DNA of 64,000 nucleotides from Bacillota bacterium. Its GTDB lineage: Bacteria > Bacillota > UBA4882 > UBA8346. Made by a program: the position numbers and the translations under genes. Positions within the stretch are counted from its first letter, which is position 1. The number at the start of each line of letters is the position of its first letter. The stretch covers positions 1 through 64,000 of the forward strand of contig JAKPCT010000291.1 of assembly GCA_029553165.1 (NCBI GenBank), given 5' to 3'. Below, in pieces: positions 41,572 through 48,796 of this stretch. Below the pieces are notes generated by a model. The model did not search any database. It was not told the DNA's origin and was given only the letters and a program-made list of their open reading frames with translations.

Positions 41572-41804
41572 ATATTAGTGCTTGAAGTTTTGCTATAGGA
41601 CTTTAAATTATTTGGTCACACAGTATTAGCTGATGTGGCCTTTTCATATTTGCGAAGTATTTGAAAGCAAAATTGCCCAAAAACTTGAAAAATATCCCTC
41701 GAGAACCATCAATAAATTGGTGGAGAAGTATGGTGTTTAAGCATTAAAAACACCAGAAAATGAAATGATAGCAGATGAAAATTATTGAGTGGGAGCTAGG
41801 GAAG

Positions 41805-42767
41805 ATGAAAAAAATTGTAAAGAGGATCCTGGTGTTAGCAATTTTAGGGACAATCATCGTTAACGCAGGTTGCCGCGAGAGAGAAAGCAATATGTTTCGC
41901 AGTATGGTAACCCGCTATCGGACACCGCCGAAAATAACGGTTTTCATTAAACAGACCGGTAAGACTGAACGGATGGATATCGAAGAATATCTGGCCGGTG
42001 TTGTGGCCGGCGAGATGAAACCAAATTGGCCACTGGAAGCTTATGCGGCGCAGGCAATAATTGCCCGGACATTCACCATGGAATTTTTATCGCGTGGTGG
42101 AACAAGAAAACTCCATGGCACCGACATCTCAACCGATGAAACCGAAGCTCAGGCATATAATGCAGCCAATATAACGCCGGTCATCAGAAGAGCAATCCGC
42201 ATGACCCGGGGAGAAGTATTAACCTATAAAAACAGATATGTTAAGGCTTGGTATTCGGCAAGTTGTGGTGGTTTAACAACCTATGCCAAAGAGGGGCTGG
42301 GTTATCGTGGCCCGGAACCGCCTTACATTAGTTCGGTGAAGTCGCCTGAAGAAGAGTATATGCCTGCGGAAGAGTTTTATTGGAATACGACATTAACAAG
42401 CAAAGAGATTAATGCAGCTCTCCGTAAGATGAATAAACCGGAGATCGGTGAAGTAAAAAAGATGAAGATCGTTGAACGTAGTAGGACACACCGGGCTGTC
42501 ACATTAAAATTTATTGGGGACAAAGGTTCGGTGACGGTTGGTGGAGCTGATTTCAGAGTTAATTATGGTCCGCAAAAGATCCGTTCAATCTGGATCTCCA
42601 ATGAAATTGATAATCGGCCAGGCGCAATTGGCATTAAAGGGAGAGGTTTTGGCCATGGCGTTGGTTTATCGCAATGGGGAGCATACGCGTTAGCTAAACA
42701 AAATTGGAGTCCGCGACGAATCGTTAAGCATTTTTATCCTAAAGCCAAGATAACTAAAATATGGTGA
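41805..42767 (+). CDS. SpoIID/LytB-domain lipoprotein
   Basis: About 320 residues with a lipoprotein signal ending VNAGC. The SpoIID domain shows YLAGVVAGEMKPNWPLEAY, where the Glu of GEM matches the catalytic Glu of SpoIID. It continues with AQAIIARTFTMEF, RGEVLTYKNRYVKAWYSASCGG and the C-terminal GRGFGHGVGLSQWGAYALA. SpoIID is a lytic transglycosylase that degrades septal glycan during engulfment. Here the gene sits between mazG and yabP, a place it does not have in Bacillus, and is a lipoprotein, so I do not give it the spoIID symbol. The ATG at 41805 is preferred over 41775, which lacks a ribosome site. Confidence 0.9.
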   Translation: MKKIVKRILVLAILGTIIVNAGCRERESNMFRSMVTRYRTPPKITVFIKQTGKTERMDIEEYLAGVVAGEMKPNWPLEAYAAQAIIARTFTMEFLSRGGTRKLHGTDISTDETEAQAYNAANITPVIRRAIRMTRGEVLTYKNRYVKAWYSASCGGLTTYAKEGLGYRGPEPPYISSVKSPEEEYMPAEEFYWNTTLTSKEINAALRKMNKPEIGEVKKMKIVERSRTHRAVTLKFIGDKGSVTVGGADFRVNYGPQKIRSIWISNEIDNRPGAIGIKGRGFGHGVGLSQWGAYALAKQNWSPRRIVKHFYPKAKITKIW

Positions 42768-42830: not shown

Positions 42831-42907
42831 ATTTTCTGGATTGATCGATTCTAACCTTTGAAACGACTGAATAATTTATAAGGAATAAAGATTGAAGGAG
42901 GTAAATG

Positions 42908-43198
42908 ATGGATAGCCAAGCACCTAAAGCAGTTGATATCCCGCATCAAATCAATCTGTCAAACCGGGGGTTGCTGGGGGTTGACGGAGTTTTAAATTTA
43001 GAGAGTTATGATCAGGAAAAGATTATCATGCAAACCAGCGTAGGGGTATTGGAGGTTAAAGGAGAGAAGTTACATATTCAACAACTCAATCTGGACCAGG
43101 GAAAAGTTAAGATTGACGGGGTTATTTCAGCATTAACTTACAATGATGATCTGCTAGCCAAAAAAACAAAGGGGCTCTTTAGCAGACTGGCAAAATAA
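42908..43198 (+). CDS. yabP: Spore coat/cortex assembly protein YabP
   Basis: A 96-residue cytoplasmic protein. The words HQINLSNRGLLGVDGVLNLESYD, VGVLEVKGEKLHIQQLNLD and VKIDGVISALTYND (each read in parts) are the YabP fold, shared with YqfC. In Bacillus it is made in the mother cell and is needed for normal sporulation. GGAGG is seven bases before the ATG at 42908; an ATG three bases earlier is also possible. It lies upstream of the transglycosylase-like gene and yabQ. Confidence 0.92.
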   Translation: MDSQAPKAVDIPHQINLSNRGLLGVDGVLNLESYDQEKIIMQTSVGVLEVKGEKLHIQQLNLDQGKVKIDGVISALTYNDDLLAKKTKGLFSRLAK

Positions 43199-43289: not shown

Positions 43290-44129
43290 ATGCCTTCTTT
43301 GCAAAGAATACGAAAGAAAAGTAAAAAAAATGTTCCCATCCAGCGTTGGATTGGGTTTTTTTTCAAATTAATCTTAAGTCCGCTGGTAATTAGCTGTGAT
43401 TTATTAAGACGTAAAGGCGTAGTAGATAACACATGGGTCTTTTCCTACATGCTTTTTTTAACCCTGGCTATGGTTGTGACATCCATTTGTTATGTTGCCG
43501 TGGAAAGCCCGATTGATAAAAGTTTAAATATGTTGGCAATGGCATCAGAGAGTAAAGAGATCCTGCCCGGAGATGTCCATCCGGTAATTGCTGCGATTAA
43601 TAAATATGCGCTAAAAGAAAAGATTGATCCGGCGCTAATCTTTGCCATAATCAAGGTCAAAAGTAATTTTATTCCGGATCGGGTTTCAGTTACGGGTGAA
43701 ATGGGCTTAATGCAGTTAAAGCTGGCAGTATGGAAAAAATACAGTGGTTCAGTTTGTCTTGGGCGACACAATAGAAATGAGATCTGTTCCGAGAATTGCA
43801 TCTTCAATCCGGCTGAGAATATTCGGATTGGTGTTAAATATTTCCGTAATTTACTTGACAAATATGGTGGCCGCGTTGATCTGGCGTTAGCGGCATATGA
43901 TGCAGGTATTGATAATGCTGATCTGGATCCGGAAACTGCCGGAACTGGAGACTTTCTTGATCAAGTGACCTCATATTGGTCTAATTTAAGGAAACAATCA
44001 ATTATGGCCCAATTAAAGACGGCGATGAACTTAAAACAATATTTGCGCTGGATGTTTGGGGCCTGTTTTCTACTGTGGTCACTTCTTTTTTACTGGATTA
44101 ATCGCAAAATCTTTAACTCTTTAAATTAA
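43290..44129 (+). CDS. SLT-type lytic transglycosylase homologue lacking the catalytic Glu
   Basis: A 279-residue membrane protein. A basic cytoplasmic start is followed by a TM helix (about 52-71), an SLT domain (about 96-235) and a second TM helix near the C-terminus (about 250-268). The fold is clear: AINKYALKEKIDPALIFAII, VTGEMGLMQLK, NIRIGVKYFRNLLDKYGG and DLALAAYDAG. The catalytic Glu normally found in ESxF is replaced by Lys124 in KVKSNF (codon AAA at 43659-43661). It is therefore probably a glycan-binding or scaffold protein rather than an enzyme, unless the base is an error. Placed between yabP and yabQ. Confidence 0.88.
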   Translation: MPSLQRIRKKSKKNVPIQRWIGFFFKLILSPLVISCDLLRRKGVVDNTWVFSYMLFLTLAMVVTSICYVAVESPIDKSLNMLAMASESKEILPGDVHPVIAAINKYALKEKIDPALIFAIIKVKSNFIPDRVSVTGEMGLMQLKLAVWKKYSGSVCLGRHNRNEICSENCIFNPAENIRIGVKYFRNLLDKYGGRVDLALAAYDAGIDNADLDPETAGTGDFLDQVTSYWSNLRKQSIMAQLKTAMNLKQYLRWMFGACFLLWSLLFYWINRKIFNSLN

Positions 44130-44209
44130 CCGATCTTGCTCCCTTAACTTCTAAAATTGCGGGTACAATCATAATTTGATCTAGAGAAGAAGGTTGGGGA
44201 GGAGCATTG

Positions 44210-44641
44210 GTGGATAATATCAATTTACAATTGGGATCAGGCTTGTTACTTCTCCTGATTGGGATAATCTTAGGGGGATATATTGATTTCTATAGAGTAT
44301 TCCGTGGTAAGCTTCGATTAAATAAGTTTCTTGATGCTGTCGGGGATTTGCTGTTTTGGGTATTAGCAGCCGTTATTTTTATACCGCTGATGTATTGGGT
44401 TAACTGGCTGGAGCTGCGGTTTTATGTCGGAATAGCGCTTTTGGTTGGGTTAAGCTTTTATTATCTGTGTTTTAGTAAGTTTTTGATTCGGCTGTTTTTG
44501 AGTTTTTGGAGATTAATAACCTGGTTGCCACGCCAACTGACTGACCGGCTAAAAAGAATCCAGTTGTTTCTGAGTAAAATCAATTATCGTTTGCAATTCA
44601 GGACTAAAACAGGTAAAATCGCAGAAAAAAGAGGGGGCTGA
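44210..44641 (+). CDS. yabQ: Spore cortex biosynthesis protein YabQ
   Basis: A 143-residue membrane protein with about four helices in the first 100 residues and a basic C-terminal tail. GGYIDFYRVFRGKLRLNKF, AVGDLLFWVLAAVIF and the aromatic YYLCFSKFLIRLFLSFW fit YabQ. In Bacillus it sits in the forespore outer membrane and is required for cortex synthesis. GTG at 44210 has GGAGG seven bases upstream; a TTG at 44207 is the alternative. In Bacillus divIC follows; here it does not, and a convergent CAP gene follows instead. Confidence 0.9.
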   Translation: MDNINLQLGSGLLLLLIGIILGGYIDFYRVFRGKLRLNKFLDAVGDLLFWVLAAVIFIPLMYWVNWLELRFYVGIALLVGLSFYYLCFSKFLIRLFLSFWRLITWLPRQLTDRLKRIQLFLSKINYRLQFRTKTGKIAEKRGG

Positions 44642-44651
44642 CTAAGCCCCC
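44633..44651. terminator. Bidirectional terminator between yabQ and the CAP gene
   Basis: GGGGGCT (44633-44639) pairs with AGCCCCC (44645-44651). The hairpin includes the yabQ stop codon and serves both converging genes. The T tract is short on the plus side. Confidence 0.75.
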
Positions 44652-44657
44652 ATTTAC

Positions 44658-45323
44658 TTATCTGCCAATAAACAGTTGTGTATAAATGTTACCATAAATA
44701 CTGCCGGAAGCAATACCAATACCGATTTCAGTAAAACTGGGGTTGAGGATGTTGGCTCGGTGTCCCGAGCTGTTCATCAGATTTTGATGAGCGCTTTCAG
44801 TGGTGGCGGCGCCAGCCAGATTTTCTCCGGCGGTTCGATATGTTATACCGGCATTTTTGATCATGTCAAAAGGTGAACCGTAAGTAGGAGAATTATGACT
44901 GAAGTAATTTTTAGCTACCATATCCTGACTTTTCTTTCGGGCCAAATTGACTAATTGACTGTTAACTGTTAATGGTTTAATTCCTTGACTGATTCGTGCT
45001 TGATTAACTAAATTAACCATTTTTGATTCTTCGGCACTGATTCCGGTTGAGGGTTGAGGCGTTGGGGTCGGGTTTGTTGGATTTGTTGGATTTGTTGTTG
45101 GTGTTGATGGTTTGGTTGTTGTTGGGACTGAAGGCTTAACGGTTGTTGTGGTTGGTTGATATACATAATAGTATCGATTACCGGTGCTGTAGACTATTAG
45201 TGTTGTATTGTTGCTGGTTTTTGTTGAGTAATAATTGGTTGCCCCCCAAGCAGGGACCATAGTAAGGATCAATAAACTGATAACCATTGATAATGATGTT
45301 AAAATTTTGGTGTTTCTGTTCAA
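44658..45323 (-). CDS. Secreted CAP (SCP/PR1)-domain protein
   Basis: A 221-residue secreted protein. A signal peptide (about 1-27, ending PAWGATN) is followed by a short Tyr-rich part and a Pro/Thr-rich linker of about 35 residues. The CAP domain (about 100-221) has MVNLVNQARISQGI, SQDMVAKNYFSHNSPTYG, GENLAGAAT and SSGHRANILNP. Bacterial CAP proteins such as YkwD are common in spore formers and envelope-linked, but their action is not settled. TTG start with AAGGAG eight bases before. Its upstream leader holds two strong hairpins. Confidence 0.9.
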   Translation of the reverse strand: MNRNTKILTSLSMVISLLILTMVPAWGATNYYSTKTSNNTTLIVYSTGNRYYYVYQPTTTTVKPSVPTTTKPSTPTTNPTNPTNPTPTPQPSTGISAEESKMVNLVNQARISQGIKPLTVNSQLVNLARKKSQDMVAKNYFSHNSPTYGSPFDMIKNAGITYRTAGENLAGAATTESAHQNLMNSSGHRANILNPSFTEIGIGIASGSIYGNIYTQLFIGR

Positions 45324-47420: not shown

Positions 47421-47448
47421 AAAACGGGCAACTAGTTGCCCGTTTTTT
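47421..47448. terminator. Bidirectional terminator for the small peptide gene and the tRNA pair
   Basis: AAAACGGGCAACT and its exact complement form a 26-base palindrome (47421-47446), with T runs on both sides. It ends the plus-strand peptide gene and the minus-strand tRNA transcript. Confidence 0.9.
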
Positions 47449-47457
47449 GATCAAAAT

Positions 47458-47532
47458 TGGAGCTGGCGATGGGAATTGAACCCGCAACCTGCGGTTTACG
47501 ATACCGCTGCTCTGCCATTGAGCTACGCCAGC
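47458..47532 (-). tRNA. tRNA-Thr (anticodon CGT)
   Basis: Read on the minus strand the acceptor GCTGGCG pairs with CGCCAGC, and the CCA end is encoded. The D arm is GCTCAATGGCAGAGC. The anticodon stem GCGGT/ACCGC holds the loop ATCGTAA, giving CGT, which reads the Thr codon ACG. The T arm is GCGGGTTCAATTCCCAT-like. It lies about 70 bases downstream of tRNA-Gly on the same strand. Confidence 0.95.
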
Positions 47533-47600
47533 AAAATTTGTTTAATACATCAAAATGAAAACTTCCGTTAAAATGGGAAGTCAATTTAAATTTGATAGTA

Positions 47601-47675
47601 TGGAGCGGGCGACGGGATTCGAACCCGCGATCCTCGGCTTGGGAAGCCGATGCTCTACCACTGAGCCACACCCGC
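47601..47675 (-). tRNA. tRNA-Gly (anticodon CCC)
   Basis: Read on the minus strand the acceptor GCGGGTG pairs with CGCCCGC (one wobble pair) with encoded CCA. The anticodon stem TCGGC/GCCGA holds TTCCCAA, giving CCC, which reads GGG. The T arm is GCGGGTTCGAATCCCGT. It is the first gene of a tRNA-Gly/tRNA-Thr pair. Confidence 0.95.
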
Positions 47676-47877
47676 GTTGTAGATAATATTATAACTGAAT
47701 CAGCATCAAAAAGCAAGATTGATAGAGAGGTAATTATGTAAAAAAACAACAAATTTTTAACCCAAATATGATTGAGATTGCCAATTTTTTATGATAACTT
47801 ATATATGGGATAAATTAACTGTAAAGGGGTGGAAAAGACCTAGTTTAATCATTATTTATGTATTGAAAGGAGCTAAT

Positions 47878-48796
47878 ATGATGAAAAAGATAATGCTATT
47901 ATTCACAATTATTACGCTTTTTGTAACAACCATTTTTTCGGGTAGTATCTTTGCAGTAGATCACAATTATTTGATTAAACCAGCTGCAGTTGTCTCCAAT
48001 GACTATCAATTATTAAATAAATCTGCTTTACAATCATTGATTACCGAGATGGTTTTGGAGAAAACTTCGCAAATAAATAATAAGGTCAAAAATACTAATA
48101 ATATTAGTTTTATTCAACCATACTTAATCAATCATGACTTTGCGACATCAACATCCTGGCGAAGGCTGCTATATTGCAAATATCAATGGACCAGTCCGGG
48201 CAATCCGTTCCTATATGGGAGCAAATAGTGGTGTCTTTACGCAGAGGGATCATATCTTCTATGAAAGCCGGCAAGATATAGTTACTTATGCCAGAGTGCA
48301 TAAGATTGGCGCTATTTTAGATTTTTATGATTACAGTCCGGAAGCAACGGGAATGGTCTATCAAAATAATAATAATAAAGTCGATGTTGATTTATTAGGA
48401 TTAAAATTAGATTTAAGTTTAGTTATTGATGGAAAACCTGATAAAATATGGATTCCGGGTTCGCTGAAATGGGAGATGCTAGATGGTGCACAGGGGGGAT
48501 TAATAATTGCGCATCGTTATGAAGCGGATTTTGACACTATTATTAATACCTCATACTATTTAGATGAAGCGAATGCAGACAATCAATTTACCGGAGATCC
48601 ACATGCATATGGTTCGTCAGGAATTTATTTAATCGGGTTGATCTATGATATGGAGCAGACGCTTCCTGATGCCAAAAATTTGACAATCAGACGCCATCTT
48701 TATTATACGGAACCAGGTTTAAAGGTGGAAAATGCAAAGAGTTTCTTTGAACGCACTAATAATCCTTTAAGATTTGAGGTTCAATTATTAAAATAA
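47878..48796 (+). pseudogene. Frameshifted gene for a secreted protein of unknown function
   Basis: The first frame (47878-48228) gives a good signal peptide (MMKKIMLLFTIITLFV, ending SIFAVDH) and about 90 further residues. The second (48134-48796) overlaps it in the +1 frame and carries a well-formed domain: HPGEGCYIANINGPV, YARVHKIGAILDFYDY, DKIWIPGSLKWEML and a final NNPLRFEVQLLK. The second part has no ribosome site or signal of its own. A TAA at 48125 in its frame places the shift after 48127. A single-base insertion would explain it. I do not recognise the protein. AAGGAG precedes the ATG. Confidence 0.7.

Follow-up and report, generated by a model that had tools for sequence, protein, structure and literature searches.

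A membrane-anchored SLT protein beside YabQ with lysine at the catalytic glutamate position, a candidate pseudo-lytic transglycosylase

In a 64,000-nucleotide stretch of Bacillota DNA, here called the window, the gene at 43290–44129 (+ strand) encodes a candidate pseudo-lytic transglycosylase: an SLT domain held between transmembrane (TM) helices, with Lys where the catalytic Glu is expected. Our analysis establishes the residue changes, their independent recurrence, the constraint under which relatives keep the dead domain, the predicted membrane architecture and the linkage to YabQ. With fair confidence, we favor the idea that the window gene product is a membrane pseudo-lytic transglycosylase (pseudo-LT) whose role is to bind, not cleave, nascent glycan alongside YabQ and DivIC at the sites of wall synthesis.

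Predicted architecture and altered active site

The open reading frame codes for 279 residues, and ORF analysis gave no competing frame over 43290–44129. In the Pfam profile search, SLT (PF01464) was the sole match of the product, scoring 69.1 bits (cut-off, 21.3) over residues 102–209, and a Peptidase_M23 (LytM) domain was absent. The AlphaFold2 model, computed from a 38-sequence alignment, has a mean pLDDT of 88 and a pTM of 0.77, with helices at residues 16–39, 47–84 and 220–278. When this model was searched with Foldseek, the best matches were Slt, MltC and MltE (Slt 5ohu, E 2.6e-5, probability 1.00). The Pfam match and the model place a GH23-like SLT domain at residues 98–230 (43581–43979, +).

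The initial annotation had put a TM helix on each side of this domain, and both the AlphaFold2 model and hydropathy agree. The preceding TM helix covers approximately residues 47–75 (43428–43514, +; model helix 47–84, Kyte-Doolittle 2.1), and hydropathy and charge analysis finds its flank toward the SLT domain negatively charged. The C-terminal TM helix covers approximately residues 255–271 (44052–44102, +; model helix 220–278 and hydropathy) and carries Trp269, which is invariant in alignments A1 and A2. A further hydrophobic helix at the N-terminus (residues 16–39; 43335–43406, +), seen in the model, had been overlooked. It contains Pro31, which is invariant across both alignments and kept in 8/8 rows that lack the catalytic Glu. 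By model and alignment, the window protein displays the YabQ-linked TM-SLT-TM architecture, consisting of the N-terminal helix with the SP motif, a TM helix, the SLT domain and a C-terminal TM helix. The charge runs from +7 at the N-terminus through +2 past the helix at residues 16–39 and −3 ahead of the SLT domain to +2 at the C-terminus, a pattern that would fit an SLT domain on the outer face with both termini inside. Under such an arrangement, the helix at residues 16–39 must not cross the membrane fully.

Meanwhile, we notice a C-x-G-x-H ... C signature within the SLT domain (C156/H160/C170; 43755–43799), which is near-invariant in the family and kept in the window protein and in all Glu-less rows. 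It is possibly a disulfide or a metal site. In one Glu-bearing member (L166 4089–4925, genome G007), a deletion takes out this signature.

The catalytic Glu had been read as replaced by Lys, codon AAA, and alignment to MltC bears this out. Lys124 (43659–43661, +) falls on the catalytic position of MltC, in a column holding E in chain 4c5f and Q in chain 4cfo, so that motif I of family-1 LTs (ES, with the catalytic Glu) is lost. Motif II retains GLMQ, and Leu145 (43722–43724, +) replaces the near-invariant Pro of GLMQ(I/L)xP in the conserved-column table. According to the conserved columns, motif III reads AYDAG, with Asp204 (43899–43901, +) replacing the invariant Asn of AYNAG, and motif IV reads GTGDF, with Gly218 replacing the invariant Glu and Phe222 the Tyr of ETRxY (43941–43955, +). 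The changes at near-invariant active-site columns are E124K, A137E, P145L, N204D, E218G and Y222F. Across 46 conserved columns, 38 are intact and eight depart (124, 131, 137, 145, 204, 210, 218 and 222). The SLT fold had been described as well kept, which holds for GLMQL, NIRIGVKYF and LALAAYDAG, all of them present, but not for the departing columns other than 124.

An assembly or sequencing error at 43659 could be invoked for Lys124, given that one G-to-A change yields Lys and that the genome assembly comprises 303 contigs with an estimated contamination of 7.27. At least five further near-invariant columns of the same active site are changed, which rules out a base error as the full explanation and leaves an error at this base scarcely credible. 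It is also very unlikely that real catalysis persists in an altered form, with another residue, or Glu137 beside GLMQ (43698–43700, +), serving as the acid instead of Glu124. Glu137 does occupy a position where, in the conserved-column table, every Glu-bearing relative has Ala. On the other hand, Glu218 and Asn204 are lost as well, and the lineages with Gln, Val, Gly or Ser at the catalytic site have no acid at 137, where Gly or Ala is found.

The catalytic Glu of SltB enzymes is in contact with a Tyr or an Asn, the latter of which reaches the sugar at −1 as well (PMC12547810). Judged from its residues, the window SLT domain would retain its fold along with some of the glycan groove, and presumably cannot perform the acid/base chemistry of an LT. 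The groove is partly altered (N204, E218), and these changes could weaken glycan binding.

Recurrent loss of the catalytic Glu and selection on the domain

The window protein belongs to a family of membrane-SLT-membrane proteins that is apparently unnamed so far. The gene was found in all 29 genomes of the class, and each of the nine further genomes in the same taxonomic family has an orthologue, with 40–47% identity to the window protein; even the closest relative found reaches only 47%. Of 399 genomes sampled from the phylum, 37 have the full architecture and 327 have YabQ. YabQ accompanies the architecture in 34 of the 37, the exceptions being three genomes whose copy has Gln at the catalytic site. 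The initial annotation had looked to orthologues in the same cluster position for Lys or another non-Glu residue, with Glu there counting against its reading. Lys as a trait common to them is ruled out, because 9/9 relatives of the taxonomic family carry Glu, and the Lys is therefore private to the window genome.

Among 50 aligned members, the catalytic column holds Glu in 42, Gln in three, Ser in two, and Val, Gly and Lys (the window protein) in one each. On a tree of the family built with this column left out, three changes at the column are needed, and well-supported branches force all three. Glu has been lost at least three times: to Lys in the window protein, to Gln in one family and to Val, Gly or Ser in another. 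The Gln replacement is the same change as in Slt E503Q and MltE E64Q, which PDB entries label 'inactive mutant'. As a baseline, 60 SLT proteins other than these were sampled in the phylum, and all 60 kept Glu, with the catalytic motif taken from whole open frames and the Glu of one protein (L260) from a separate reading.

The loss of Glu goes together with further changes in the active site. Leaving one row (L202) apart, Glu-bearing rows have 0–8 of the 46 columns broken, and never 124, 137, 142, 204, 205, 218 or 219. Columns 142, 204, 205, 218 and 219 show departures in 8/8 Glu-less rows versus 1/41 Glu rows, the single exception being L202, a relative of the Val/Gly/Ser group. The corresponding Fisher value (2e-8) takes no account of shared ancestry, and conservation in Glu rows was part of the reason for choosing these columns, so the three independent events are the safer number. 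In all eight Glu-less proteins, 14/14 structural columns are intact.

Some members show additional peculiarities. In L202 (4006–4914, genome G104), Glu is retained, AYNAG has become YNSS and the ETR motif is gone; this copy is possibly heading toward inactivation. Both Ser-type proteins (L206 3990–5081 and L207 3602–4783) have a low-complexity insert between motifs III and IV, which is of the GEPADSGEPAD... type in L207.

In the Gln clade, whole-gene dN/dS is 0.06–0.13, and that of the SLT domain is 0.01–0.08, lower than in every other part of the protein (bootstrap for two pairs, 0.00–0.03 and 0.03–0.11). Glu-bearing controls gave 0.02–0.10 for the SLT domain. A Ser pair gave 0.14, and a Val/Gly pair, which is less constrained, 0.26. 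The low values of the Gln clade and the Ser pair demonstrate, at the level of codon substitution, that purifying selection maintains the dead SLT domain in relatives. These ratios describe the relatives' copies, the window gene having no near relative (best 47% identity). Selection on the Lys copy itself is suggested by its intact frame, anchors and structural columns. Our findings support the earlier proposal of a pseudoenzyme: motifs I–IV are all altered in the window protein, relatives lost Glu independently, and the domain is under purifying selection in them.

We also considered that the window gene is a decaying relict, its LT redundant in this genome only and its active-site changes the first marks of drift. 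The private Lys, beside nine family relatives with Glu, fits such decay, as does the longer window branch (0.81, versus about 0.55–0.60 in two sisters when their branch lengths on the tree are summed). The window genome also has three further SLT proteins, two of which were read to carry Glu, so LT activity is available elsewhere. Yet the frame, both anchors, 38/46 conserved and 14/14 structural columns are intact, the SLT domain matches that of the sister L164 at an identity (0.50) no lower than the remainder of the protein, and purifying selection acts on the independent lineages without Glu. Weighing both sides, we regard decay as improbable and prefer a retained pseudo-LT.

Linkage to YabQ and DivIC

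The window gene lies in a run of genes that are all on the + strand, in the order spoVB-like (39162), mazG (40706), SpoIID-like LT (41775), yabP (42905), the SLT gene and yabQ (44207). The yabP gene (42905–43198, +; Pfam YabP, and NCBIfam TIGR02892 above cut-off) ends 92 bp upstream of the SLT gene. The yabQ gene, also called shfA (44207–44641, +; TTG start; Pfam Spore_YabQ, and NCBIfam TIGR02893 above cut-off), begins 78 bp downstream. The SpoIID-like LT (41775–42767, +) scores above cut-off for TIGR02669 and below it for TIGR02870, and alignment to C. difficile SpoIID shows that its own catalytic Glu (GEM) is kept.

Several features farther along the window were noticed. A symmetric terminator-like hairpin (44633–44651) lies where yabQ and a CAP-domain gene (44658–45323, −) converge. 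The overlapping ORFs at 47791–48228 and 48134–48796 resemble one gene (47791–48796) frameshifted around 48134–48228, which looks like an assembly error or a pseudogene. The translation of the ORF at 47432–47752 (−) resembles read-through of tRNA genes, and this segment probably represents tRNAs rather than a protein.

Across the 50 family loci, YabQ is directly downstream of the SLT gene in 45 and DivIC is nearby in 37, as against YabP upstream in 27, which makes YabQ and DivIC, not YabP, the constant partners. Class relatives have the order pyrG-SLT-yabQ-divIC, and this order together with the 27/50 count rules out YabP as the linked partner. Transcription of the Yab-cluster genes, yabQ among them, is under sigma-E, and these genes are believed to have a part in forming the cortex, for which yabP may be dispensable (PMC3533761). 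According to a 2026 preprint, ShfA (YabQ) localizes at active wall synthesis sites, for which undecaprenyl phosphate is needed; the preprint also proposes that ShfA binds undecaprenyl lipids and reports that at least 89% of sporulating Bacillota conserve the shfA-divIC order (PMC13232292).

The initial annotation had proposed a role in YabP/YabQ-dependent cortex assembly. Its YabQ part stands on the adjacency of the two genes, and its YabP part fails on the inconstancy of that neighbor. A non-catalytic part played solely in cortex assembly, together with YabP and YabQ, would suit the location in the yab cluster, the adjacency to YabQ, and the presence of SpoIVA, YabQ and Spo0A in the window genome. 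It would also suit two f66 genomes with SpoIVA, both of which miss the SLT gene and YabQ together. On the other hand, a scan for sigma-E promoters, in itself uninformative, gave scores at background and none above it.

The three genomes with Gln weigh further against such confinement. In these members of one family (L189/G063, L192/G357, L194/G316), Spo0A, SpoIVA and YabQ were not detected, and the strongly constrained Gln copy is kept right before divIC. The spacing is 5 bp in two genomes, and the third has a computed overlap that arises from an upstream-extended divIC frame. Completeness of G063, G316 and G357 is 98, 77 and 89%, and a chance gap for the missing markers in all three is unlikely; by their gene content, they are a probable lineage of spore-formers that lost sporulation. 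YabQ is gone there and is thus not an obligate partner in the Gln clade, and a cortex-confined role for the gene is doubtful. We consider such a role unlikely, though it has more in its favor than decay. It overlaps with the preferred reading in taking the protein as a pseudoenzyme, and the explanations weighed here are not all mutually exclusive.

Proposed function and relation to known systems

For the preferred reading of a pseudo-LT at wall-synthesis sites, we propose the following arrangement. The SLT domain would sit outside the membrane between its two anchors, and its groove would hold or sense nascent glycan strands, or an active autolysin, without cleavage. The pseudo-LT may dock partners by direct contact, and its place of action may be the site at which lipid-linked precursors are collected by YabQ and septal synthesis is organized by DivIC. 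Most relatives have the catalytic Glu and are probably active membrane LTs as well, for example strand trimmers. Since the gene has survived at least three losses of Glu, a non-cutting function suffices to retain it.

More tentatively, and with somewhat less than even confidence, we propose a YabQ/DivIC-linked class of membrane pseudo-LTs in spore-forming Bacillota. In this class, cutting would be dispensable and discarded at least three times, and the conserved job, binding nascent glycan or an autolysin where lipid-linked precursors flow, would outlive sporulation. A single catalytic residue that was lost repeatedly at a fixed locus offers a natural experiment that separates cutting from binding in a membrane LT. 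Meanwhile, YabQ, which is required for the spore cortex, gains a new candidate partner. The YabQ/ShfA-DivIC neighborhood of the preprint (PMC13232292) is the same locus as that of the window gene, and the main text of the preprint has no occurrence of transglycosylase.

Dead LytM factors are already well known; a search of the literature available without subscription found no report of a natural SLT pseudo-transglycosylase kept by selection. The window protein shares the SLT fold with the family-1 LTs Slt70/Slt, MltC and MltE (GH23), both by sequence and by Foldseek, and retains GLMQ. In contrast to them, it has neither the catalytic Glu, nor the Asn of AYNAG, nor the Glu of ETRxY, and its SLT domain is held between membrane helices, whereas Slt70, MltC and MltE are soluble or lipoproteins. 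That spore biology can retain a pseudoenzyme has a precedent in the CspC pseudoprotease of Clostridioides difficile spores, which acts at germination and has an unrelated fold (PMC6636752). The inactive LytM factor DipM of Caulobacter stimulates an SLT and an amidase (PMC10336132). Like DipM, the window protein is a dead peptidoglycan-hydrolase fold; in DipM, the LytM endopeptidase fold is kept for regulation, whereas the window protein has the SLT fold.
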